9,999 bases of DNA, from contig JAJZXP010000280.1 in the NCBI GenBank assembly GCA_021806345.1, positions 1 through 9,999 of the forward strand. Direction: 5' to 3'. This stretch comes from Thermoplasmata archaeon (GTDB taxonomy: Archaea > Thermoplasmatota > Thermoplasmata > Thermoplasmatales > Thermoplasmataceae). This document shows positions 1 through 9,999 of this stretch, piece by piece. The notes under the pieces are model-generated. The model was not told the DNA's origin. It made no database searches and saw only the letters and a program-made list of their open reading frames with translations. Numbering within the stretch: position 1 is the stretch's first letter; every line of letters begins with the position of its first letter. The position numbers and the translations under genes were made by a program.

Positions 1-1
1 T

Positions 2-541
2 GGATTGAGAGAACCTCTTCTGTTCATAGCAGATGGTATACCTAAACTGGATGAGGAGATACGTAAAATATTTCCAAGAGCTGAATTCCAGCTATGCACC
101 ATACATGCATCCAGGAACTTAGAAGCAGATGTGAGAGAATCAGATAAGAACGAGATCGATCGAGACCTGAAAGCAATATTCCTTTCAGATACAAAGGATT
201 CTGCCATAAACAAATTCAATCAATTCAAGGGCAAATGGTCCTCGAAGTATCCTAGATCTATATACAATATGGAAAAGAAGCTTGGATATCTGTTCACATA
301 CTTCCAGTATCCTGAGAGCATCAGGAGATCTCTGCATTCATCGAACATAATAGAAAGAATGAACAAGGAGATAAGAAGGAGAATAAAGGTAATTGACTCA
401 CTGCCCACTGAAAGTGCAGCAATGAAGATAATATATCTCAGAATAGCTGAATTGAATGAGAAATGGTCACACAGAGTCATGAAAGGATATTATAAATGCA
501 AGGATGAGATCAGTGACATGTTCAGGGAGAGGTATCCTTAA
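2..541 (+). CDS. IS256-family transposase, C-terminal part (5' truncated by window edge)
   Basis: This is the catalytic C-terminal part of a DDE transposase of the IS256/mutator family, which cuts and pastes its own element. The frame is open to the left edge; the TTG at 5 is probably internal, since full family members are about 390-400 residues and about 180 are visible. Numbering from that TTG, the second catalytic Asp lies in FIADG (D10), followed by the family C-x2-H motif (C31, H34 in QLCTIHASRN). The catalytic Glu is in SNIIERMNKEIRRR (E117), 107 residues after the Asp, which is normal family spacing. The gene stops with TAA at 539-541, directly before the terminal repeat. No frameshift or stop is visible, so the element may be intact. 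The first Asp lies outside the window. Confidence 0.9.
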   Translation, partial: GLREPLLFIADGIPKLDEEIRKIFPRAEFQLCTIHASRNLEADVRESDKNEIDRDLKAIFLSDTKDSAINKFNQFKGKWSSKYPRSIYNMEKKLGYLFTYFQYPESIRRSLHSSNIIERMNKEIRRRIKVIDSLPTESAAMKIIYLRIAELNEKWSHRVMKGYYKCKDEISDMFRERYP

Positions 542-566
542 TCTTACACATAATTCTGGACACTAC
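542..566 (+). repeat. Right terminal inverted repeat of the IS256-type element
   Basis: Immediately after the transposase stop lies CTTACACATAATTCTGG followed by ACACTAC. This resembles IS256-family ends as I recall them (left-end form starting GTAGTGTCCAGAATT). The matching left repeat is outside the window, so the assignment rests on position and resemblance. Translation of frame +3 runs straight through it into the downstream NYN reading frame. Confidence 0.65.
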
Positions 567-998
567 GTCAAACTTGATTACAAGGCATTTTGTGATTTGT
601 TATGCAAAAAACACAATTCATCTTTATTTAGAACCTATGTGTATGATTGTGAGTTCAAATCAAACGAATTATTGCTGGATAGACTTGAAAAGTTGACCAA
701 TTTTAAAATTAGGCGGGGAGAGAAACAAAAGCTAGGATTTCACTATGTACAAAAACAGTTCGACATTCAGCTTGCAGTGGACATGATAACACTCTCTAAA
801 TCGAACATACAAGACATCATTTTAGTATCTGGAGATTCTGATTTCATTCCAGCTGTCAAATATGTTCAAGATCAAGGAACAAGAGTTTATCTTTGGAGTG
901 CTAAGAAAGACAAGAATGGTGAACTTGCCAGAAACTGTGATGGTGCTAATGCATTAACTGAAGAAGTACTTGTTAGGTATTCGCCACTGCACCATTAA
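567..998 (+). pseudogene. NYN/PIN-like ribonuclease domain protein (LabA/DUF88 type), 5' end removed by IS insertion
   Basis: The frame encodes most of a NYN-domain protein, a PIN-like fold metal-dependent RNase family. Visible features are KLDYKAFCDLL (the helix that normally follows the first strand), the KQFDIQLAVDM segment with two conserved Asp (codons near 762 and 780), and the SGDSDFIPAV motif with two Asp (834-842) typical of NYN domains. The expected first beta strand with its catalytic Asp and D-x-x-N motif, about 20-25 residues, is absent; sequence upstream of 567 is the IS end. The frame stays open through the IS to an ATG at 504 inside the transposase gene, giving a 164-codon chimera whose first 21 residues are IS-encoded. 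Without the first Asp, catalysis is doubtful. It is AT-rich like the next gene. The domain call is firm; pseudogene status is inferred. Confidence 0.72.
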
Positions 999-1047
999 GA
1001 ATCCATAAATTAACAAATATCGGCTAAAATATTACCGCATAAAAGGA

Positions 1048-1055
1048 TTTATAAT
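1048..1055 (+). promoter_or_regulatory. TATA box (TTTATAAT) for the gene at 1079
   Basis: TTTATAAT is centred about 27 bp before the GTG at 1079. That is the normal archaeal TATA-to-start-site distance, so transcription would begin at or next to the start codon (leaderless mRNA). This supports the GTG start. Confidence 0.55.
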
Positions 1056-1078
1056 AATTTACATTTGCTTACTTTAAG

Positions 1079-1498
1079 GTGAGTGAATTACCTGAACAAA
1101 TAGAAAGTGAACGTCAAAAAGATATAACTACCGTAATTAAAGAGAAGAACTTACTTATGGTCACATGCCGGTTGCTGAGCGATTTGATACCAAGTAAATT
1201 TATAAAAGATGTAAAAGAGATGGAAGAAAATAAACCAAGGGAAATAAATAGACTTCTAATTGATATATCAACTCATTTAAGTAATATTGGAGGATTTTGT
1301 GATGAACGCAGTCGTAAAAGTATCTCTGCTGTCGTGAAATTTCTGTCTGTGGTAATGATTACACCCATGGCGTATTTACAACTTAAATCCTTATTACCGA
1401 TAATATCAGGTTTAGAAGTAAACTTTAATAAACGACCTTTTAAGATTATCAAATTTTCGATACCTGGAATCATTAATACGGAATTTAAAAGAGAATAA
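1079..1498 (+). CDS. Hypothetical protein, 139 aa, AT-rich accessory gene
   Basis: I do not recognise this protein. It starts with GTG, chosen because a TATA box lies about 27 bp upstream and the codon then falls at the expected transcription start. The N-terminal half is charged and probably helical. Residues about 80-110 form a moderately hydrophobic stretch (AVVKFLSVVMITPMAYLQL) that could be a buried helix or one weak membrane segment. The C-terminus is basic. No cysteine pairs, nucleotide-binding loops or nuclease motifs are evident. It follows the damaged NYN gene on the same strand after 80 bp and shares its AT-rich composition, unlike the core genes beyond the tRNA-Gly, so it probably belongs to the same acquired segment. 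Coding status is supported by the uninterrupted frame plus promoter; function is unknown. Confidence 0.6.
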   Translation: MSELPEQIESERQKDITTVIKEKNLLMVTCRLLSDLIPSKFIKDVKEMEENKPREINRLLIDISTHLSNIGGFCDERSRKSISAVVKFLSVVMITPMAYLQLKSLLPIISGLEVNFNKRPFKIIKFSIPGIINTEFKRE

Positions 1499-1632
1499 GT
1501 TGTTCAACTCTCATATTTATTCAATGAAGAATAAAATAACGTTAATATATAATTAAACATTATTGGAACCACAAATAAATTTTTGAGGAAACTTCTGATT
1601 CCATGAGTTGATATATTGAAGTTTTATCTTTA

Positions 1633-1707
1633 TGCAGGTGCCGGGATTTGGACCCGGGTCGAAAGCTTGGAAGGCTTCCGTGCTAGACCAGTCTACACTA
1701 CACCTGC
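1633..1707 (-). tRNA. tRNA-Gly (anticodon TCC)
   Basis: Read on the minus strand, the gene folds into a full cloverleaf. The acceptor stem is GCAGGTG/CACCTGC. The D arm begins GTGT and closes with GCAC. The anticodon stem GAAGC/GCTTT encloses loop CTTCCAA, giving anticodon TCC. The T stem CCGGG/CCCGG has loop TCCAAAT, and the discriminator base is A. It is 75 nt long with no intron and no encoded CCA. An AT-rich TATA-like motif lies 28 bp upstream of the 5' end (about 1731-1739 on the plus strand). Its 3' end faces the AT-rich accessory region at 541-1632, the arrangement expected when a tRNA 3' end has served as an integration site. Confidence 0.96.
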
Positions 1708-1748
1708 CTTGAAAGGGTTATAATTATGGGCTTAATATGAGTTTTCTC

Positions 1749-2423
1749 TCAAGTTGGTGTGTTGAATATGGTGTCGAAGGTGTTTGAATAATAACTACCA
1801 TGTGAAAGAACCGATACTGTGAAATCGTAGGTCGCAGTGGATACGGTTTCATTGAAATAGACATAACTGTTGTGATAGTTTGAGGTTAATGTTATCGGGC
1901 TGCCTCCAGCGGTCGAATAAGATACAGAAACATTTTGAATTGCTCCTATGTATGAAACATAAACTCTGAACGAGAGTGGATCGTTGTTGTGTGGTATGGG
2001 GAACGCATAAAAACCATTTTTCTCGCTCAATGATGTCCAGTTTCCATGCGAATCAGAGACCTGGAGGTTGCTAATCTGTGGACCTGCGATATTGCTGATT
2101 GGCGGATTTAGGAAAATTGTCCAGAAAATTATCCATGTGAGAAAAAATACCATCACAAGCAAGAACACATGGGTTCCACGCTGTGGGAGCTTAAGATGCA
2201 GAGCAGTGAAAACTTTCCTGAAATATACAAGAATTCCCAGCATTATGAGGACGCCCACGTACCATATCCCTATGATGTAAAAATATCCTGAAAGTAAACC
2301 CAGGACTGCTGCTATAAGGAATATTACTACGGTTGCTTTTGCCCTCTCCTTTTCATATTCAAGAAATTCCTTCTCGTTGAATTCAGGTTCAACAAAAACT
2401 TCCTGATCTTTATCTTTTGCCAT
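1749..2423 (-). CDS. Membrane-anchored surface protein, three TM segments plus external beta-rich domain
   Basis: This 224-residue protein has a charged acidic N-terminus (about 1-29), three hydrophobic segments (about 30-48, 49-69 and 84-105) and a hydrophilic C-terminal domain (about 106-224) rich in Ser, Thr, Tyr and Asn with alternating hydrophobic residues, suggesting an immunoglobulin-like beta sandwich. The basic loop between segments 2 and 3 (YFRKVFTALHLKLPQRG) favours a cytoplasmic N-terminus and loop, placing the C-terminal domain outside. That domain carries three N-glycosylation sequons (N128, N164, N191), fitting the heavily glycosylated surfaces of Thermoplasmatales. The start is ATG, 14 bp after the triosephosphate isomerase stop on the same strand, so the two are probably cotranscribed. 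I know no function for it; it may be restricted to this order. Confidence 0.8.
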   Translation of the reverse strand: MAKDKDQEVFVEPEFNEKEFLEYEKERAKATVVIFLIAAVLGLLSGYFYIIGIWYVGVLIMLGILVYFRKVFTALHLKLPQRGTHVFLLVMVFFLTWIIFWTIFLNPPISNIAGPQISNLQVSDSHGNWTSLSEKNGFYAFPIPHNNDPLSFRVYVSYIGAIQNVSVSYSTAGGSPITLTSNYHNSYVYFNETVSTATYDFTVSVLSHGSYYSNTFDTIFNTPT

Positions 2424-2437
2424 TTAACCAGGGTGAA

Positions 2438-3091
2438 TTAAAAATTGATTAATGAATTTATTGCGTTTTTCGGATCTGTGGAAAGAACAACTCCCGAGGC
2501 CACGAGAATGCCATCTGCGCCAAGTTCAATTGAACGTTTGACATCTTCTGCCTTCTTTATACCGGCCCCCACAAGTAGTCGGACACCAGATTTTTTGCAT
2601 ATTTTACTGGCCCGTTCAATGACATCCGGTTTTGATGTGGAAACCGATATATTCCCACCGATCAGAGAAGGCGGTTCATACGCTATAGAATTTGGAGAAA
2701 ATTGTGCGATTCTGGATACCTCGTCCTCGTCTGCTGCACATACTGTTATTTCAAAATCAACTTCCTTTGCCCGCTTAATTGTTGATTCTATGTGCGTGAG
2801 TGAGACCCTGTTTTCAGAATGATTCAACAGAGATCCCCTGATTCCGATCGAAAGAAGCGAATCGATTGAGACCTTGCCAGTGTAAGGTCCATATGTAAAT
2901 GGGTCCACATGCTGCCCGATTATTTCCTTGCCCGATGTTCTTGAAGCTGATTCAAGGTCAATTGGATTCACGGCATATGAGATCTTCCAGCCATAATTGG
3001 TGAGATCATCTGGACATTTACTAAGAAATTCAGAATTAAGATTTCCGGTAGCGATTTCATAAGACTTCAGGTTTACTATGAAGGATAACAT
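2438..3091 (-). CDS. tpiA: Triosephosphate isomerase (archaeal short type)
   Basis: This cytosolic TIM-barrel enzyme interconverts dihydroxyacetone phosphate and glyceraldehyde 3-phosphate in central carbon metabolism. At 217 residues it matches the short archaeal form rather than the roughly 250-residue bacterial one. Visible motifs, numbered from this start, are the substrate-binding Asn and Lys in VNLKSY (N7, K9), QHVDP, the catalytic His in LLNHSENR (H91), the catalytic Glu in AYEPPSLIGG (E139), and phosphate-binding segments VGAGI and GADGILVASGVV. The ATG at 3091 was chosen because MLSFIVNLKSY aligns in length with the Thermoplasma enzyme as I recall it; an in-frame GTG at 3100 would add three residues and cannot be excluded. 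It is divergent from the acyl-CoA synthetase gene and leads a likely two-gene unit with the downstream surface protein. Confidence 0.95.
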   Translation of the reverse strand: MLSFIVNLKSYEIATGNLNSEFLSKCPDDLTNYGWKISYAVNPIDLESASRTSGKEIIGQHVDPFTYGPYTGKVSIDSLLSIGIRGSLLNHSENRVSLTHIESTIKRAKEVDFEITVCAADEDEVSRIAQFSPNSIAYEPPSLIGGNISVSTSKPDVIERASKICKKSGVRLLVGAGIKKAEDVKRSIELGADGILVASGVVLSTDPKNAINSLINF

Positions 3092-3130
3092 ATTTTTCAC
3101 GTGCCTTCAAGTGTAACATAGAAGGATCAA

Positions 3131-3150
3131 TAAATTTTATTACTATAAAT
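3131..3150. promoter_or_regulatory. Shared AT-rich promoter region between tpiA and the acyl-CoA synthetase gene
   Basis: The gap between the two divergent genes is only about 65-73 bp and contains one strongly AT-rich block. On the plus strand TAAATTTTATT is centred about 27 bp before the ATG at 3165, predicting a leaderless transcript. On the minus strand the same block reads ATAAAATTTA and would start tpiA transcription near 3109, with a leader of roughly 10-18 nt. Both promoters appear to overlap, so initiation complexes could compete. Confidence 0.5.
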
Positions 3151-3164
3151 CATCTGACTATCTT

Positions 3165-4874
3165 ATGGTTGAGCTTGAAAGTAGCCCTCAGACGCTTGAA
3201 GAATTGTGGAAGAAGAGCTACCCCAAAGGTAATGAAAGGAGTATAGAGATTCCTGATAAGAGTGTTTATCAATTGTTAAAGGACTCTGCAACTAAGTTCC
3301 CTGATTCAGTCGCATTAGTCTTCTTTGGAAAAAAAGTCACCTATAAGGCATTCCTCGCCATGGTGGATGCCCTGGCATTCAATTTAAAAGAAAAACTTAG
3401 ACTTTTCAAGGATGCAAAGGTGGGATTTATACTTCCAAATACGCCACAATATGCAATCTCATTTTTTGCTGTTGCAAAGATAGGCGGTGTCGTCGTACAG
3501 ACAAATCCCATATACACTGAAGCAGAAATACACGATGAATACAAGAGCACTGAGGTCTCTGCTGTCATAACACTGGATCTATACTATGAAAAAGTTGCAA
3601 ATCTTGCGAAGAATGACATTTCAATTGTGGTCACAAAGGTGAAAGATTTTCTGACTCCTCTTGCCGCATTTGTATACAAGAGAAAGACAAGGAATGATCC
3701 AAAGCCGCCTGTTATTAACTACACAGGTAGAATATTCCGATTCACCGATTTGATAAAGAGTGGAAATTCGCCTGAGGAAAAGATAGATCCACAATATGAT
3801 CCCGTGCTTTTCCAGTTCACAGGTGGAACCACAGGAACACCGAAAGCGGCTATGCTCTCACACAGAAATCTTGTCGCAAACACGTCTCAGCTTAAAGCAT
3901 GGCACTCAAGCCTGAATAATCCTGGCATATACATGTCAACCCTGCCGTTCTTCCATGTGTATGGAATGATGACCTCTCTTGTCCTGCCTGTTACAACGGG
4001 TTCAAAAATGATTTTTGTTCCGGATCCCAGAGATACAGAAACGCTTCTGAAATTGATCAACAAATACAAGCCTGACTATCTGCCAGGTGTTCCCACTCTA
4101 TATAAATCATTGATAAACAGGCCTGATATAGCAAAATATAACCTTAAATCCATCAAGGTGTGCGTTTCAGGCGGAGCACCTCTGCCAGTTGAGACACAGA
4201 AGAGATTTGAGGATATAACCGGTGGTCTTCTTATAGAAGGATACGGATTGAGTGAAACTTCACCTGTTGTTACTGCCAATCCTGTCGATCGTAATGCAAG
4301 AAAGATAGGGTCTGTAGGGTTACCGCTCCCAAACACCGAGTTAAGATTGGTAAACCAGTACTCACTTGAGACCGTTGCCCTTGGTGAAGAGGGCGAGTTG
4401 ATGGTTAAGGGTCCACAGGTCATGCTTGGTTACTGGAGAAATGAAGCTGAAACCTCAGAGGTAATTATTGACGGCTGGCTCAGAACGGGAGATATTGGCA
4501 AGTTCGATTCTTCTGGTTTTCTATACCTGGTGGACAGGAAAAAAGATATGATAATCTCCAGCGGGTACAATGTATATCCCCGTGAAATAGAGGAGGTGTT
4601 CTACAAACATCCCGATGTGATTGAGGCAGCTGCCATAGGCGTTCCAGATCCCAAGAGGGGGCAGAGTGTAAAGGTCTATGTTGTAAAGAAGGAGGGTTCG
4701 CCTGTAACTGAACAGGAACTCCTGAATTTTGCTTCAAAACAGCTGGCACCTTACAAGAGACCGAAATCCGTGGAATTCAAGAAAGATCTCCCGAGAACTC
4801 TTGTTGGCAAGGTTCTGAAAAGAGAACTTCGCACGGACAAACCTGACACCTCGAGGATCAAAAGAAACCTCTGA
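3165..4874 (+). CDS. AMP-forming acyl-CoA synthetase (long/medium-chain fatty acid-CoA ligase type)
   Basis: This 569-residue ANL-superfamily adenylate-forming enzyme joins a carboxylic acid to CoA through an acyl-AMP intermediate. All core motifs are present: the ATP-binding loop FTGGTTGTPKA (218-228), the adenine-binding segment EGYGLSETSP (358-367), the TGD motif with D443, the hinge region LVDRKKDMIISSGYNVYPREIE (455-476, with R458), and the catalytic lysine in VGKVLKREL (K549). Length and motif wording resemble FadD-like ligases more than acetyl-CoA synthetases, but the chain length or aromatic nature of the substrate cannot be read from sequence. Archaeal lipids are isoprenoid, so the likely role is uptake and breakdown of environmental fatty or organic acids. 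It has its own leaderless promoter, and no beta-oxidation genes adjoin it. The ATG start fits family N-termini. Confidence 0.93.
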   Translation: MVELESSPQTLEELWKKSYPKGNERSIEIPDKSVYQLLKDSATKFPDSVALVFFGKKVTYKAFLAMVDALAFNLKEKLRLFKDAKVGFILPNTPQYAISFFAVAKIGGVVVQTNPIYTEAEIHDEYKSTEVSAVITLDLYYEKVANLAKNDISIVVTKVKDFLTPLAAFVYKRKTRNDPKPPVINYTGRIFRFTDLIKSGNSPEEKIDPQYDPVLFQFTGGTTGTPKAAMLSHRNLVANTSQLKAWHSSLNNPGIYMSTLPFFHVYGMMTSLVLPVTTGSKMIFVPDPRDTETLLKLINKYKPDYLPGVPTLYKSLINRPDIAKYNLKSIKVCVSGGAPLPVETQKRFEDITGGLLIEGYGLSETSPVVTANPVDRNARKIGSVGLPLPNTELRLVNQYSLETVALGEEGELMVKGPQVMLGYWRNEAETSEVIIDGWLRTGDIGKFDSSGFLYLVDRKKDMIISSGYNVYPREIEEVFYKHPDVIEAAAIGVPDPKRGQSVKVYVVKKEGSPVTEQELLNFASKQLAPYKRPKSVEFKKDLPRTLVGKVLKRELRTDKPDTSRIKRNL

Positions 4875-4876
4875 CC

Positions 4877-4882
4877 TTTTTT
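4877..4882 (+). terminator. T-run terminator after the acyl-CoA synthetase gene
   Basis: Six consecutive T residues begin three bases after the TGA stop, within an AT-rich stretch. Archaeal RNA polymerase typically stops at such U-runs without a hairpin, and none is evident here. The call rests on position and composition only. Confidence 0.4.
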
Positions 4883-4920
4883 ATCCTAATTATTATTCGA
4901 TAACCTGCAAAGACTATTGA

Positions 4921-4930
4921 GCAATAATTA
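4921..4930 (+). promoter_or_regulatory. TATA-like element for the 659-aa membrane protein
   Basis: GCAATAATTA is centred about 25 bp before the ATG at 4950, consistent with a leaderless or nearly leaderless transcript. The match is weaker than the other promoters in the window. Confidence 0.4.
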
Positions 4931-4949
4931 CATTCTGGTATAGGTCTGA

Positions 4950-6929
4950 ATGTTCATTCCTGTTTACTACATTCTCGTCTTGTTGATGCTGCTGATGGGT
5001 GCAGGAATGAGTTTTTCAATATATCTTGCACGTACCGCAGATAATCATGTCAGGAGGATGTTTGCCTATGTTCTGCTTGATATGATGACTGGAATGGTTT
5101 TAGGTCCGTTCATTCTGCTCGCATATCCCGGCAGGATAACTGTACCTGATACGATAGAGATTACATTCATTACAATGGCAGTTCTACTCGCGCCTTCAAT
5201 GGCATATTTCTTAAGAGCGATTATGCAGGATTCCATTGCTGGAAGCCGGAACTTTATTGTTGTATTTACTGCATTTTTCATAATATTTGATGAGATCGTA
5301 ATGAGTTTGGATTTCAATCTGTTCCTATCACCAGTTAAATTCCATAATTTACTTTTTACCGATACCCTGTCTTCAGTTGCCTATTCAGTATCAACTTACT
5401 GGTTTGTAATTCCAATGGGCATAGAGATGGTACTTTCAATTTTGTATGTTCGCAGATCACTTGGAAGTTTTTCTATCGTCATTTTCTCCGTACAGGCGGT
5501 CTCGATGATACTGGCTCCTGCTGCTTTCAAGGCCACCTTGTGGGTGCCGGTTGCGGTATATCTGTCGGGTGCTGTCATGACTGGATTTTTTGTTTTTCTC
5601 TTCGAGCATCTTTACCGTAAGATGTCGATACATCAGAATGCATCAAGATACCTTCTGTATCTTCTTACGGCTTATTCAGTAATGATGGCTGGTGTCTTTC
5701 TCTGGATGGCATACCACACCTATCTGGGAATTGCAGCTGGAATGATATTTGACATGATCATTTACATCAGGGCAGCTACCTATCCGGGATACCTGAATTC
5801 TGGTACCAAGATATTCTGGCTTGCAAAGAGGAACTGGTCTTTCCTCTTTCTTCTCATGATCTTCGTTTCTGAATTCTTCATGGGTGCTGTATTTGACCTG
5901 CAATTTTATGGTCCTTCTAGATTCATGAGTTCTTTGAGCCTTCAAACAATATCAGGATCTTTTATTGCAATGATGGAAAAATCGCTGTTTGACTTTTTTT
6001 ACTTCTTCAGCATAGTTTCTCTATCGACCTGGTTCCTTGTGATGATGGGCATAGAGATGGGTTCCCTTGTAGTGTTCAAGATCATGAAAACAAGGGAACT
6101 TGAAACCAGAATCCGCCTGGTACTGATGCTTTTTGCCTATGGTGTCTATTCGATCCTGATCCCGTCATTCCTGGTACCCGATTCATCACTGTTTCCATTC
6201 ATTGGCTGGACAATGGGGATAGGATCTGGGGGTGGCCTGGCACCGTACCTGATCATTCCCATGCTCGTCACATATCTGATTAGCGGTATCCTGTCCTATC
6301 TGTTTGGATCAAGACAATTGTGCTCAGTTTTCTGCACTGCACCCGTAATGTATCAGGGAACTTTTTATGATTCAATGAAAAAATTCAATACGTCATCTGA
6401 TTTTACAAAGAAACTCACTTATAAGGAAACCGGCAGGAATCCCATATATTCTGTTGTATCAAAGATGGTATATTTTTCTGTCATTGCTGCCGGGATCGTA
6501 TCCTATCTGGATTCCACGGGATATCTAAGATTGACATTTTACGGTGTTGATCCAGAATACATGCTCTACCTCTTTTACTTTGGCTTTCTATGGTACGCCG
6601 TATTCATAACAATGCCCTTTTTTGGATCCTACGGCTGCATCAAAACTGGATATTGCCACTGGGGTAATTTCAACAGGTTCATCTCTAAATTCGGTTTCTT
6701 CAGGTTGAAGGTTCGGGATCCGAACCAATGCATCAACTGTAAGACGAAAGACTGCGCTACAGCCTGTCCGGTGGGAAATCATTCTCAACCAGGAAACTTC
6801 ATAGAGAAGGGTGAATATAAGGATTCAAGGTGCATTGGAATCGGGGACTGCGTCGATGCATGCCCATACGAAAACATATTCTATTATGATGTCAGGCACT
6901 GGTTGAAGGAAAAGATTTCTAACCGGTAG
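4950..6929 (+). CDS. Polytopic membrane iron-sulfur protein: duplicated six-TM unit fused to a NapH/NosR-like ferredoxin module
   Basis: This 659-residue protein has about 15 hydrophobic segments and a C-terminal iron-sulfur domain. Residues 37-222 and 232-452 look like two copies of a six-helix unit. Each has a Glu in its third helix (FDEIVM, E115; VSEFFM, E308) and a W-F-x4-M-G-I-E-M motif in its fourth (E159; E369). Two cysteine patches follow: C458/C462 in QLCSVFCTAP and C563/C569 in GCIKTGYCHWG, placed like the Cys patches of NapH/NosR/CcoG proteins. A two-cluster ferredoxin domain ends the protein: C594, C597, C602, C606 (CX2CX4CX3CP), then C628, C634, C638 with Ile631 where a fourth Cys is usual. 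This suggests electron transfer between a soluble carrier and the membrane, perhaps the quinone pool; that role is inferred. The N-terminal unit is homologous to the convergent 302-aa protein, and the two coding ends overlap by 11 bp. Confidence 0.85.
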   Translation: MFIPVYYILVLLMLLMGAGMSFSIYLARTADNHVRRMFAYVLLDMMTGMVLGPFILLAYPGRITVPDTIEITFITMAVLLAPSMAYFLRAIMQDSIAGSRNFIVVFTAFFIIFDEIVMSLDFNLFLSPVKFHNLLFTDTLSSVAYSVSTYWFVIPMGIEMVLSILYVRRSLGSFSIVIFSVQAVSMILAPAAFKATLWVPVAVYLSGAVMTGFFVFLFEHLYRKMSIHQNASRYLLYLLTAYSVMMAGVFLWMAYHTYLGIAAGMIFDMIIYIRAATYPGYLNSGTKIFWLAKRNWSFLFLLMIFVSEFFMGAVFDLQFYGPSRFMSSLSLQTISGSFIAMMEKSLFDFFYFFSIVSLSTWFLVMMGIEMGSLVVFKIMKTRELETRIRLVLMLFAYGVYSILIPSFLVPDSSLFPFIGWTMGIGSGGGLAPYLIIPMLVTYLISGILSYLFGSRQLCSVFCTAPVMYQGTFYDSMKKFNTSSDFTKKLTYKETGRNPIYSVVSKMVYFSVIAAGIVSYLDSTGYLRLTFYGVDPEYMLYLFYFGFLWYAVFITMPFFGSYGCIKTGYCHWGNFNRFISKFGFFRLKVRDPNQCINCKTKDCATACPVGNHSQPGNFIEKGEYKDSRCIGIGDCVDACPYENIFYYDVRHWLKEKISNR

Positions 6930-7827
6930 CTGTTTTTTCATGCAGTTTCTTGGTATTGTAGTTCTGGTACATCCCCATTATTATGTTGAAATAAAGTGCC
7001 ATGGCAATTATCATGGAAACCGCAAAGACGAGATATGAAAGCCCAAAGTTTGCTGGCAGAATAACTGGACCTATGAAGCTGAGTGATGTGAGCAGAAATA
7101 GGAATACAAAATCGATCGCAATATTTCTTTCTTTACTCCTTTGTCCATCACTTTGATCAAATATCTTCCTGTTTCTATATACCGCACGGAAAAAATAAAC
7201 TATTGACACAATCATAAGCACAGAATATGCAATGAGCAATATGGAAATAAAACGTGAATTACCGAACATTACTGGATCTGCTATTTGCATCAGGAGAATT
7301 GAGATTGCAATTTGCTTTTCAATTCCGGACCTAAGCTGCAAGAATATGAATACAACCATTTCTGTGATCATTGGCAGAAGAAAGAGTATGCTTGTTATAG
7401 ATAGGCTAAAGAAGCTGAGACTATCGACAAACGAATCTTGACCCGCAGTACCGAATGCGACCACCCGAAGTAAAACAGCCATCGAAATTTCGTTCCAGAC
7501 AAGCAAAAATGACAATGTACCTGATATAGACCTTGAAATTCCGCTGAATTCTCCTCTTGCAGCAATAACCAACAGGTAAACTATTGCCACCGTCATTAGG
7601 ATCATAGAAAAGTTGACTGCTAAAACAGTGTTTATAAATGAACTGGGAGCGACCAGATAATATGTTATTCCATTAAACATGCTGGCCATCATCGCAAGAA
7701 AGAATACAGAAACTGAGAATGTCTTGAGTTTAAGATTGGATAGATCTGACCGCAGATAATAGATGACCCAAATTAGAAATAAGGTCATAGCGACTTCAAT
7801 GAAAATTACAACCGGAAGGTTTTGCAC
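6919..7827 (-). CDS. Polytopic membrane protein, paralogue of the N-terminal half of the 659-aa iron-sulfur protein
   Basis: This 302-residue protein has about nine hydrophobic segments and no cysteine motifs. It aligns colinearly with residues 1-275 of the convergent 659-aa protein. WNEISM (E113) matches FDEIVM (E115), and FLLPMITEMV (E156) matches FVIPMGIEMV (E159), with Glu-Glu spacings of 43 and 44. The helix after each ends in a similar Arg-Ser, and LLTSLS matches LLTAYS further on. It lacks the ferredoxin part, so it may be a partner subunit or an independent relative. The start is GTG, supported by a TATA box about 25 bp upstream and by end-to-end agreement with the paralogue. The last 11 bp, including the stop, overlap the end of the opposite gene. 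I do not recognise the family; membrane location is certain, function unknown. Confidence 0.82.
   Translation of the reverse strand: MQNLPVVIFIEVAMTLFLIWVIYYLRSDLSNLKLKTFSVSVFFLAMMASMFNGITYYLVAPSSFINTVLAVNFSMILMTVAIVYLLVIAARGEFSGISRSISGTLSFLLVWNEISMAVLLRVVAFGTAGQDSFVDSLSFFSLSITSILFLLPMITEMVVFIFLQLRSGIEKQIAISILLMQIADPVMFGNSRFISILLIAYSVLMIVSIVYFFRAVYRNRKIFDQSDGQRSKERNIAIDFVFLFLLTSLSFIGPVILPANFGLSYLVFAVSMIIAMALYFNIIMGMYQNYNTKKLHEKTATG
6933..6938 (+). terminator. T-run terminator for the 659-aa gene, inside the convergent gene
   Basis: Six T residues begin four bases after the plus-strand TAG stop and would give a U-run in the transcript. The run lies within the coding region of the convergent gene, so the 3' ends of the two mRNAs would be complementary. 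Position and composition are the only support. Confidence 0.4.
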
Positions 7828-7847
7828 AACACGGCATTTAAAAATGT

Positions 7848-7856
7848 TATTATAAG
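7848..7856 (-). promoter_or_regulatory. TATA box (CTTATAATA) for the 302-aa membrane protein
   Basis: On the minus strand CTTATAATA is centred about 25 bp before the GTG at 7827. It predicts a leaderless transcript and supports the GTG as start, since no in-frame ATG lies near it. Confidence 0.55.
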
Positions 7857-7928
7857 TTAATTGGAATTGTTTTTATTTCTGCCTCTAAGAGATGCATGGG
7901 GCATTAAAAATTATGAAATGATACAAAA

Positions 7929-8504
7929 TTATAGATTTGCAATTATTTCAGATGATTTTTTTACAAGCATCATTCTTGACATATTGGTCAGAGAGCGTTT
8001 GTGCGCTTCCTGATCGCCAGAAGAAACTGCATCTTCAGCGATTACAGAATAAAATCCCCTGTTTAATGCATCCCTTGCACTGGATTCTACGCCAATTTCA
8101 GTAGCTATTCCAGTAAATATTAAAGTCTTGATTCCTGCATTTCTTACCATAAGCTCGAAATTCGTCCCAATAAAGATACTTGCGGTGTTTTTATTGAGAA
8201 CAATATCGTCCTTTTCAGGTTTTACGGTGAGATCCCAGACTGTAGGATCTGTCGGCATCTGCCCCCACCTGTTTGCCAGTCTTGGCCCGGATTCGAATCT
8301 TTCGGGCAGTGGTGTGATCTTGGTGAAAAAGATAGGTATACCTTTCTCTCTTGCTTTCTTGATCAACGAATTTAGATTACTAAGAAATTCATCCTTGTTG
8401 TATATTCTGCCAACAAGCAAGTTCTGAACGTCCCACACTATGAGCGCAGTATGATCTGGCCTAACAACATCCTTAAGCTCTTTAAAAACATCATTTCTTT
8501 CCAT
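7929..8504 (-). CDS. Isochorismatase-fold (cysteine hydrolase family) protein with Gly in place of the catalytic Cys
   Basis: This 191-residue single-domain protein has the isochorismatase-like hydrolase fold, used by isochorismatases, nicotinamidases and related amidases. Visible features are the first strand with the conserved Asp in ALIVWDVQN (D25), the family Lys in VLNKNTASIF (K105), and the nucleophile-elbow region TGIATEIGVESSARDAL. In that last segment, the position normally held by the catalytic Cys (as in T-x-x-CV) is Gly138. The cis-peptide segment GIATE and the later AEDAVSS segment are intact, and length is normal. Either the enzyme uses another chemistry, as in Cys-less relatives such as PhzD, or it has lost hydrolysis and binds ligand only. 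The ATG start has a TATA-like element about 25 bp upstream, so it is probably leaderless and monocistronic. The substrate cannot be deduced; neighbours do not form a pathway with it. Confidence 0.87.
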   Translation of the reverse strand: MERNDVFKELKDVVRPDHTALIVWDVQNLLVGRIYNKDEFLSNLNSLIKKAREKGIPIFFTKITPLPERFESGPRLANRWGQMPTDPTVWDLTVKPEKDDIVLNKNTASIFIGTNFELMVRNAGIKTLIFTGIATEIGVESSARDALNRGFYSVIAEDAVSSGDQEAHKRSLTNMSRMMLVKKSSEIIANL

Positions 8505-8524
8505 GCTTCGAATATGGTAACATC

Positions 8525-8532
8525 ATATTTAA
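8525..8532 (-). promoter_or_regulatory. TATA-like element for the isochorismatase-fold gene
   Basis: On the minus strand TTAAATAT is centred about 24-25 bp before the ATG at 8504, in an AT-rich gap, predicting a leaderless transcript. Confidence 0.45.
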
Positions 8533-8610
8533 GAAATGAGAAACTGTATATCCAGAAATCAGCCCGGAAATTAATGGAATTCGTGTTATTGCAGCATTTA
8601 ATTCTGGATT

Positions 8611-9132
8611 TTAATTGTCAGGAATGTTATCTTCCTTTTCCATTCCCTTTGCTATCAGGAAACCTCTTGCCCTTTCCGTGTACTTATATTCATTGACCTT
8701 TCGCCAGAACTCTTTCGAGTGGTTGCTGTATATCAAATGGGCCATCTCATGCATTAAAACGTAGTCTAAGACCCACACAGGCATATCAATTAAATTATGC
8801 GAAATCCTGATCGTCTTATTGGCTGGAGTGCAGCTTCCATTCCTATACTCCTGTCGTTCTGAAAATGATAGAGATGCCTCCAACTTACCTGAGAAAAACT
8901 TGTTGTTCAGGAAATTGAACCTTCTTCCAAGCAATTCTCTATTTTTAGATTCCTGAGCATTCTTTCTCATCTCAAGGCGCTTCTGCATTTTCTGTATAAT
9001 TAATGTTTCCTCGGATTTTGAAAGGCCTGTGGGGATCTGGATAATGATCTTGCCATTCTGCATATGTGCATTAATCGTCTTCTTTCTTTTTGGGCTTCTC
9101 TTAACTATAACTTCCAATAGATCACTGATCAA
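8611..9132 (-). CDS. YgjP-like (DUF45) zinc metallopeptidase domain protein
   Basis: This 173-residue protein belongs to the YgjP/SprT-related group of small metal-dependent peptidases. The zinc-binding motif is MHEMAHLIY with H128, E129 and H132; the third ligand is probably H138 in NHSKEFW, the usual family order HExxH-x5-H. The N-terminal part has the basic VKRSPKRKKTI segment followed by strand KIIIQIP, as in family members, and a charged helix (about 40-70) links it to the catalytic part. Length is slightly short for the family (often 170-240), and no signal peptide is seen, so it should be cytosolic. The start is a TTG, the first possible start after an in-frame TAA at 9169-9171; a TATA-like CGTTATTTGG about 27 bp upstream supports it. 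A second TTG at 9117 would remove five residues. Substrate unknown. Confidence 0.85.
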   Translation of the reverse strand: MISDLLEVIVKRSPKRKKTINAHMQNGKIIIQIPTGLSKSEETLIIQKMQKRLEMRKNAQESKNRELLGRRFNFLNNKFFSGKLEASLSFSERQEYRNGSCTPANKTIRISHNLIDMPVWVLDYVLMHEMAHLIYSNHSKEFWRKVNEYKYTERARGFLIAKGMEKEDNIPDN

Positions 9133-9178
9133 ATAGATGATAAGAACATTTGTCCAAATAACGATTCGTTATGTCCAT
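9122..9178 (-). other. Possible 18-codon leader ORF overlapping the metallopeptidase start
   Basis: On the minus strand an ATG at 9178 opens a short frame encoding MDITNRYLDKCSYHLFDQ and ends in TGA at 9122-9124, inside the first codons of the metallopeptidase in another frame. A good Shine-Dalgarno-like AGGTGATT lies just upstream (9182-9189), one of the clearest in the window. If transcription starts upstream of it rather than at 9132, it could couple translation of the two. It may also be chance. Confidence 0.25.
9156..9162 (-). promoter_or_regulatory. TATA-like element (GTTATTT) for the metallopeptidase gene
   Basis: On the minus strand GTTATTT is centred about 27 bp before the TTG at 9132, which would give a leaderless mRNA. 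It competes with an alternative reading in which the transcript starts near 9185 and includes the short leader ORF. Confidence 0.35.
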
Positions 9179-9207
9179 TATAATCACCTATTCTTAGTTT
9201 CCAAAGG

Positions 9208-9215
9208 TATAAATT
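9208..9215 (+). promoter_or_regulatory. TATA box (TATAAATT) of the tRNA-Lys gene
   Basis: TATAAATT is centred about 27 bp before the tRNA 5' end, preceded by purine-rich AAAGG that could act as a BRE. This is a near-ideal archaeal promoter with transcription starting at or next to the mature 5' end. Read in reverse, the same box could serve the minus strand. Confidence 0.7.
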
Positions 9216-9238
9216 GTTATGTAATATGCCGTTAATGC

Positions 9239-9312
9239 GGGTCCGTAGCTTAGCCAGGTAGAGCGATGGACTCTTAATCCATAGGCCGGGGGTTCGAACC
9301 CCTCCGGACCCG
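9239..9312 (+). tRNA. tRNA-Lys (anticodon CTT)
   Basis: A complete cloverleaf is visible. The acceptor stem is GGGTCCG/CGGACCC with discriminator G. The D arm lies in GCTTAGCCAGGTAGAGC. The anticodon stem ATGGA/TCCAT encloses loop CTCTTAA, giving anticodon CTT. The T stem GGGGG/CCCTC (one G-T pair) has loop TTCGAAC. It is 74 nt long with no intron and no encoded CCA. The 3' end faces an AT-rich gene that begins about 140 bp downstream. Confidence 0.97.
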
Positions 9313-9424
9313 CTCTACATAAGATGTAGTTTTCCTGAATAATACGAAAAAATTATACATGTAATCATATAATTTTGTACTGACCCTTTTTGATCTAATT
9401 GAACTTGTGAGCAACCGATAGGAC

Positions 9425-9432
9425 TTTATAAA
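9425..9432 (+). promoter_or_regulatory. TATA box (TTTATAAA) for the gene at 9456
   Basis: TTTATAAA is centred about 27 bp before the ATG at 9456 and predicts a leaderless transcript. It selects 9456 over the out-of-frame ATG at 9451, which meets a stop after two codons. Confidence 0.65.
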
Positions 9433-9455
9433 CAAGTATTTTTAGCTAAGATGAT

Positions 9456-9999
9456 ATGACGAATAATGTTGATTGGATACAAAAGAGCTTACAAACTGTG
9501 TATGAAGAAGGATATTTAAATAGATTGGTAAACATTTACCCAATAAATGAAAATAGTTTCAGAGATGTTAGTAAAGAGCTAATTGAAGACATAAAAGACT
9601 CTTACAATAAAAGAGATCCCATTGGAGTTGTAAAACATTGCTTATGCTTAGAAAAGTTCCCAATTGACAATCCATATATTTCCATGATCAGGGAAAAGAG
9701 AATTTTTGAAAAGAATTTGGAGGTAGTAGAAACGATAGGAAACCTCTTATTAAAAATGGAAATAAGGAATTTAGAAACACTAATTAAGGCACCAAAATCT
9801 GGAAGCAGACAATTTGGTCATTCATTTAAGTTGTGGCTAAAAAGTAATTATGAAAAAAATTTTTTAATATATGATAAATTTGAACAATATCATGATAACG
9901 GACTGAAATTTTTAGATGGGTCAGACGATACTTTGAAGCATTATATCAGTAATAACTTCGAGATCAATACTGAAAAAGGATTGGATTTAGTGTTTAAAA
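9456..9999 (+). CDS. AT-rich accessory gene, 3' truncated; possible type II restriction endonuclease
   Basis: The frame is open from the ATG to the right edge; 181 codons are visible and the C-terminus lies outside. It is hydrophilic, Lys/Asn/Ile-rich and strongly AT-rich. Two segments remind me of type II restriction endonucleases: KAPKSGSRQFGHSFKLWL (111-128), and KGLDLVFK at the very end (174-181), which in such enzymes leads into the catalytic core with GLD supplying an acidic residue before an E-x-K motif. The decisive E-x-K would lie just outside the window, so this is resemblance, not demonstration. The start is fixed by the TATA box 27 bp upstream. It lies just downstream of the tRNA-Lys 3' end; a partner methyltransferase, if the call is right, should be on its far side. 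No methyltransferase is visible here. Confidence 0.6.
   Translation, partial: MTNNVDWIQKSLQTVYEEGYLNRLVNIYPINENSFRDVSKELIEDIKDSYNKRDPIGVVKHCLCLEKFPIDNPYISMIREKRIFEKNLEVVETIGNLLLKMEIRNLETLIKAPKSGSRQFGHSFKLWLKSNYEKNFLIYDKFEQYHDNGLKFLDGSDDTLKHYISNNFEINTEKGLDLVFK

Follow-up and report, generated by a model that had tools for sequence, protein, structure and literature searches.

What would an archaeon do with two homologous membrane proteins encoded end to end, only one of them joined to an iron-sulfur module? The question is raised by a 9,999-nucleotide stretch of DNA from a Thermoplasmata archaeon (assembly GCA_021806345.1, contig JAJZXP010000280.1, positions 1 to 9,999; hereafter the window). 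The gene poly (window positions 4950..6929, plus strand) is an open reading frame (ORF) for a 659-amino-acid (aa) polytopic membrane protein with a C-terminal polyferredoxin module, for which we found 334 homologues. The gene sa (6919..7827, minus strand, GTG start) encodes a 302-aa standalone membrane unit with nine main helices, as judged from its ORF, alignment, predicted model and topology count. The two ORFs are convergent and their 3' ends share 11 bases. We describe a recurring membrane unit of seven to nine helices with a methionine and glutamate core, and we tentatively propose that poly and sa together make up a two-chain membrane module, which would handle a soft metal, most likely copper, for aerobic respiration.

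Homology and conserved core of the membrane units

The membrane parts of poly and sa are homologous. The two proteins aligned by BLASTP with 24% identity over 212 columns (29 bits, E 2e-4). Their Smith-Waterman score of 119 was reached by none of 1000 whole-protein shuffles of sa (z 6.6), by none of 1000 shuffles within 20-residue windows (z 6.0), and by one of 1000 shuffles within 10-residue windows (z 4.8). We then compared profiles with hhalign, using residues 1-455 of poly (88 rows: P0001 and 87 from the best 120 of the 334 matches) and a 49-row sa profile (the window protein and a selection from the matches listed), and found that poly 14-289 was colinear with sa 12-296 (probability 98.9, E 3e-17). 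The controls against poly gave probabilities of 0.2% (reversed sa), 0.4% (COX1), 0.8% (UbiA) and 1.4% (N493, a membrane family described below). These results confirm the convergent homologous pair proposed in the initial annotation.

Part of the unit is repeated within poly. The homology to sa extends past unit A of poly (residues 1-229, positions 4950..5636, plus strand, delimited by hhalign and conservation) to residue 289, M269 included. Comparison of unit A with the second membrane stretch (residues 230-452, positions 5637..6305, plus strand) indicated that residues 73-172 are weakly repeated at about 262-382 (hhalign probability 91, E 1e-6, approximately 100 columns; reversed control 1.1%). 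Two signatures common to sa and unit A, E-x2-M and M-x2-E-M, appear again in this repeat (E308, M311; M366, E369, M370). Thus, sa has one copy of the unit, poly has one and a partial repeat, and some longer relatives have a further one-and-a-half.

The conserved positions of the membrane units are mostly methionines. Among columns conserved at 95% or more, methionine occupied 18 of 49 in poly 1-430, where 2.4 would be expected, and 13 of 41 in sa, where 2.6 would be, as against one of 62 in the poly C-terminus; the background frequency of methionine is 5-6%. Across 83 membrane units drawn from sa, from poly1 (the type of poly paired with sa), from poly2 (a paralogue whose N-terminal unit matches sa) and from other archaeal forms, with a mean pair identity of 24%, 12 columns were conserved at 95% or more: eight Met, two Glu, one Phe and one Pro. 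At 85% or more there were 17 columns, including ten Met and two Glu, in 81 units (the same set minus two fragment rows). The methionine share in families from the same loci was 8 of 203 for COX1, 12 of 293 for Ferroplasma-type COX1, 2 of 68 for UbiA and 8 of 55 for N493, all control families having fewer rows than the 83-unit set and being mostly more alike. In the 49-row sa alignment, 21 columns were invariant.

The core residues are M16, M45, M46, M49, M76, E115, M118, M156, E159, M160, M186 and M210 in unit A, and M14, M46, M47, M50, M75, M78, E113, M116, M153, E156, M157, M180, M205, M272 and M276 in sa. Both glutamate pairs noted in the initial annotation hold up in the 81 units: poly E115 aligns with sa E113 (95% conserved) and poly E159 with sa E156 (100%). 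The LLT-x-x-S motif noted with them does line up between these two proteins, but it lies outside the family-wide conserved columns. No histidine was conserved at 95% or more in the membrane parts of poly or sa, and on this ground we rejected a heme-binding membrane cytochrome.

We found no Pfam family or solved fold for the unit. No Pfam model scored above cut-off in the membrane part of poly and sa had no Pfam match, in line with the initial annotation, and neither predicted model had a significant Foldseek match among solved structures in the PDB. Matches to major facilitator superfamily (MFS) and 7TM chains were generic and non-significant, and a transporter of known fold appears unlikely. 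We conclude, from profile comparison and conservation, that the membrane units of poly and sa form one superfamily, defined here.

The predicted structures and the distribution of charged residues were similar in the two proteins. Mean pLDDT was 74.6 for sa and 82 for poly, with residues 1-400 of poly mostly near or above 90, and the helix boundaries of the two models corresponded one to one over nine helices. Lysine and arginine numbered 17 in the odd loops of sa versus two in the others, indicating an N-out/C-in orientation, and 13 versus three in loops 0-9 of poly, placing its N-terminus outside and its C-terminus inside. The later half of poly agrees with this only if residues 338-378 cross the membrane once; if they are taken to cross it twice, the two totals become 15 and 14. 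Based on this charge pattern, we read the ferredoxin module of poly as cytoplasmic.

The iron-sulfur module and the history of the pair

The C-terminus of poly resembles NapH and CcoG. The module (residues 442-650, positions 6273..6899, plus strand) was delimited by the NCBIfam NapH model, hhalign, Fer4_10 and conservation. The NapH model NF007013 matched residues 442-650 with E 1.4e-6, although the score was well under the equivalog cut-off (27.6 vs 234 bits). By hhalign, the C-terminus matched Escherichia coli NapH (4.5e-7) and YccM (1.4e-6); neither of these matched the membrane part of poly or sa. The only Pfam matches above cut-off in poly were Fer4-type domains at residues 588-642, consistent with the ferredoxin fusion that had been described. 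We conclude that, by these matches, the C-terminus belongs to the NapH/CcoG polyferredoxin superfamily. The NapH-like C-terminus, the invariant methionines and the partial internal repeat had not been seen in the initial annotation.

Eleven cysteines of the module are conserved: C458, C462; C563, C569; C594, C597, C602, C606; and C628, C634, C638. They do not make two complete four-cysteine ferredoxin motifs: the first has four and the second has three (C628-x5-C634-x3-C638), suggesting that the second cluster is [3Fe-4S] or otherwise liganded. A CX3CP motif is a hallmark of CcoG. Five poly2 proteins that we inspected have CSTLCP; P0001 has CSVFCT, without the proline, and its second pair is CX5C. 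The C-terminal Ig-like domain of FixG had no Pfam match in poly at E<=1, and poly terminates at residue 659, 20 residues past the Fer4_10 match.

Several known systems share features with poly. According to the available text of a review (PMC7558416), CcoG is a Cu(II) reductase with two iron-sulfur clusters and two copper sites, and YccM, which is termed a CcoG homologue there, also lacks the FixG C-terminal domain. Like CcoG/RdxA/FixG and YccM, the poly C-terminus has membrane helices, CX3C(P) cysteines and ferredoxin motifs predicted from charge to be cytoplasmic, and poly2, like ccoG in the same text, lies near a heme-copper oxidase. Unlike CcoG and YccM, poly has an additional membrane part of approximately 430 residues with the Met/Glu core, 4+3 ferredoxin cysteines and a separate partner gene; it also differs from CcoG in having no FixG C-terminal domain. 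NapH, the ferredoxin protein of periplasmic nitrate reductase, is the best curated model for residues 442-650, but poly falls far under its cut-off and has the extra membrane part. Intramembrane methionine motifs (MXXXM, HXXXM) are also found in copper transporters such as the MFS importer CcoA, where, in the text available to us, they are thought to bind copper and are tied to oxidase biogenesis (PMC5829832). In contrast to CcoA, poly and sa have no MFS Pfam match, no conserved histidine, and many more invariant methionines. Finally, a gene called 'Fd' or 'polyferredoxin NapH superfamily' in the sulfocyanin-oxidase cluster of Thermoplasmatales (PMC12524180, PMC11349054) is apparently poly2, in the same neighbourhood. 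The available portions of these papers name the gene but are silent on its membrane unit and methionines and on poly1 and sa, and in the accessible parts of the open-licence PMC literature we found neither the membrane unit nor sa described.

Standalone sa genes are almost always next to poly. Among the matches listed, poly was present, by name, in Thermoplasmatota, Nitrososphaerota, Thermoprotei and Marsarchaeota. A genome scan with sa gave 55 loci (L001 and so on), all from Thermoplasmata/Thermoplasmatota or genera thereof by title, except for a 'Euryarchaeota archaeon' (L051) and one 'uncultured archaeon' clone (L028, L045). Counting the window, these comprised 25 convergent sa-poly pairs (L049 and L053 with disrupted ORFs), three tandem pairs, 24 N-terminal units of poly2, and four sa genes without poly in the fetched DNA, two of them at a contig end (L001, L054) and two with flanking sequence (L031, L034). 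Of the standalone sa genes with enough flank, 28 of 30 adjoin poly. The two others are an sa-like gene at L034:10001-10903 and a short one (237 aa) at L031:1794-2504, next to N493. In 292 genomes of the phylum, all ten standalone sa matches were beside a poly match, a count that leaves out G219:C2, a frame of 123 aa at the end of a contig, and includes several genomes from the 55-locus scan. We conclude from the conserved linkage that the pairing is under selection.

A second lineage has an additional unit within the poly chain. Among the matches listed, 16 relatives were longer than 760 aa. Ten of these (983-1045 aa) consist of a whole poly and an extra N-terminal copy corresponding to poly positions of about 16-347, and the other six have parts of the extra copy. 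These relatives of approximately 990 aa, together with the conserved adjacency (28/30), support the suggestion in the initial annotation that sa is a partner subunit.

The sa gene is not a recent copy of the poly next to it. We made an unrooted IQ-TREE tree of the 83 units (304 columns). One side (39 rows, support 100/99) contained sa, poly2 and Thermoplasma-type poly, and the other contained the long fusions together with poly1 and other archaeal poly. Of the sa rows, the 14 main ones formed one clade (100/98), and six distant ones fell outside it but on that side of the branch. In the long proteins, the two unit copies were sisters. Because sa groups with the N-terminal units of poly2, we found no support for a recent duplication of the neighbouring poly, whether in tandem or with inversion (the latter having been offered as the alternative in the initial annotation), and rejected it; in addition, the orientation is tandem in three of the 28 pairs. 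The tree therefore indicates separate origins for the extra units, one inside a single chain and one as an independent gene. Separately, in L067 poly is present as two overlapping ORFs (8664-9491 and 9458-10582, minus strand) that split the membrane part from the iron-sulfur module; the adjacent N493 is split too, and natural fission and frameshifts are both possible.

Gene neighbourhoods and oxidases

The paralogue poly2 is usually found near genes for copper enzymes. COX1 was present in the fetched DNA at 17 of 24 poly2 loci, and several of the remaining seven are at contig ends. The loci with COX1 mostly also had COX2, a cupredoxin and a UbiA prenyltransferase that is probably heme O synthase. 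There were two layouts: poly2 divergent from a UbiA-copper protein-COX1-COX2-DUF7312 operon, and poly2 within a few kilobases of sulfocyanin-oxidase genes (Ferroplasma type).

Many of these loci also encode N493, an unnamed membrane family of approximately 490-540 aa with an invariant SCQCE (10-row alignment) and the methionine share given above (examples include L066:7790-9253, L045:12776-14254 and L047:8327-9940). Three N493 proteins that were scanned had no Pfam match. N493 was found at poly2/oxidase loci, accompanies sa-poly pairs in L039, L052 and L053, and is a neighbour of poly in five Thermoplasma-type loci. Of the 23 genomes with both N493 and COX1, 18 have the two no more than 6 kb apart. 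Upstream of N493-poly in L066 (7069-7782), and at equivalent positions in L067-L070, is a gene for an exported protein of 236-238 aa, which has a single hydrophobic stretch at its N-terminus and a CuA-like C-x3-C-G near its end.

Every genome with poly also had a terminal oxidase. Of the 292 phylum genomes, 40 had poly, 130 COX1, 28 cytochrome bd and 28 N493. The overlap with poly was 34 for COX1, 25 for bd and 27 for N493 (Fisher 1.8e-8, 1e-22 and 3e-27, values that are descriptive only and inflated by shared ancestry). All 40 poly genomes had either COX1 (34) or, otherwise, cytochrome bd (six). Cox11 was found in none of the 40, by a search that was positive in one of 14 control genomes. The SCO1 model gave weak matches in 19 of the 40, three of them over cut-off and none above 27 bits; they cover only part of the model, and we did not count them as SCO1. 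With Cox11 not found and SCO1 weak, the copper-insertion route in these genomes is otherwise unassigned.

Other genes recognised in the window are the 3' part of a Mutator-family transposase (PF00872; 2-541, cut by the window start), a NYN-domain protein whose ORF overlaps the transposase end (504-998), triose-phosphate isomerase (2438-3100), acyl-CoA synthetase (3165-4874), a YgjP/SprT-like zinc metallopeptidase (8611-9132, minus strand) and a Tsp45I-type restriction enzyme (PF06300; 9456-9998, cut by the window end). Of 26 pair loci, acyl-CoA synthetase and triose-phosphate isomerase recur beside the pair only in L002-L006.

Proposed function and rival explanations

Copper handling is the best single reading of the pair, tentative as it is, because the membrane core consists of Met and Glu without a conserved His, the iron-sulfur module is related to a cupric reductase, and a paralogue is near copper enzymes. 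A metal-linked redox role, one of those suggested in the initial annotation, is plausible. Electrons from a cytoplasmic donor would enter the C-terminal clusters of poly, and Cu(II) would be reduced to Cu(I) at the membrane interface via the CX3C/CX5C cysteines, possibly near a Met/Glu site. The thioether core would then bind, pass or hold Cu(I) toward extracytoplasmic copper centres, candidate destinations being the CuA/CuB sites of the oxidase or blue copper proteins. The partner sa would complete a two- or three-unit assembly, and poly2, often with N493, would do likewise beside the terminal oxidase operon. This action would be akin to that of CcoG, a cupric reductase of bacteria, but with the metal handled by a membrane part of a new kind. 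Metal binding and the identity of the metal, its reduction and transport, and formation of a complex are what we infer from the homology, modules, conservation and linkage of the two genes.

Several observations weigh against this proposal. A search for 16 query families labelled no gene for an oxidase or a cupredoxin next to any of the 28 poly1-sa pairs, and no family recurred in more than six of the 26 pair loci. At 14 poly loci in 13 genomes of other Thermoplasmatota, a search of all stop-to-stop frames recovered poly in all 14 but found nearby none of the 16 query families, nor sa or N493; COX1 was elsewhere in the genome in 12 of the 13. These 14 loci lowered our estimate for copper slightly. 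Six poly genomes, five of them of Thermoplasma type, have no COX1, and 96 genomes with COX1 have no poly, indicating that poly is no general oxidase factor. In Thermoplasma-type genomes poly is near Rieske/cytochrome b genes, a location that suits an electron carrier equally well. The 238-aa exported neighbour in those genomes was not confirmed as a cupredoxin, having no Pfam or PDB sequence match and only weak hhalign matches (SoxE 50%, in its N-terminal part; COX2 1.8%). The conserved methionines could also serve another soft metal, or have a structural or redox role.

The main rival, which we consider possible and place close behind copper handling, is that poly is a respiratory electron-transfer complex, with electrons going from cytoplasmic ferredoxin or a similar donor through the iron-sulfur module and membrane unit to either a quinone or a membrane cupredoxin serving the oxidase, and with sa as an accessory subunit. 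NapH-type modules are known electron-transfer parts, the location of poly2 beside oxidase and sulfocyanin genes and of poly near Rieske/cytochrome b fits, as does the presence of some terminal oxidase in 40 of 40 poly genomes, and the names given to the cluster gene in the available text of PMC12524180 and PMC11349054 point the same way. However, with no histidine at 95% there is no obvious heme site, and no known quinone-site family was matched. Electron transfer also does not account for the dominance of methionine in the core of poly, sa and, partly, N493, or for sa keeping this core without the cluster cysteines.

The same architecture might instead serve iron or another metal, for example in iron uptake or reduction in acid, metal-rich water, which we consider improbable. 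The hosts include Ferroplasma (L047), described in the sources available to us as an iron oxidiser, and there are glutamates within the core, but many neighbours of poly2 are copper enzymes. In transporters, moreover, methionine is a poor iron ligand.

Still more improbable is that poly2 supplies electrons to heme a synthase (CtaA/COX15), with poly1-sa serving a similar heme step. A 261-aa gene follows poly2 in Ferroplasma-type loci, starting in L047 five bases past the last sense codon of poly2, and is probably the COX15 placed next to 'Fd' in the available text of PMC12524180; mitochondrial ferredoxin is reportedly tied to Cox15. But no Pfam model matched the 261-aa protein, poly occurs without COX1 in five Thermoplasma-type genomes, and no recurring neighbour of the poly1-sa pairs was found. 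A last possibility is that sa survives as a decaying or neutral remnant of poly2 and does not act jointly with poly, as its placement with poly2 in the tree and its lack of a ferredoxin module might suggest; this is very hard to reconcile with its 21 invariant columns, with its staying beside poly in 28 of 30 cases while other neighbours change, and with the doubling of the unit inside the poly chain in another lineage.

Copper handling thus remains our preferred, though tentative, explanation. In a broader and rather unlikely form, the Met/Glu unit would define an archaeal family that conducts or inserts Cu(I), coupling iron-sulfur-driven reduction of Cu(II) to movement of Cu(I) through paired or fused units and, with N493, replacing SCO1/Cox11 in respiring Thermoplasmatales. 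Methionine is normally replaced freely, and here it is almost the sole conserved feature of a membrane core joined to an iron-sulfur module. The poly/sa family offers named genes and exact residues with which to approach the question of how archaea that lack a clear SCO1 or Cox11 supply copper to their heme-copper oxidases and blue copper proteins in hot acid.

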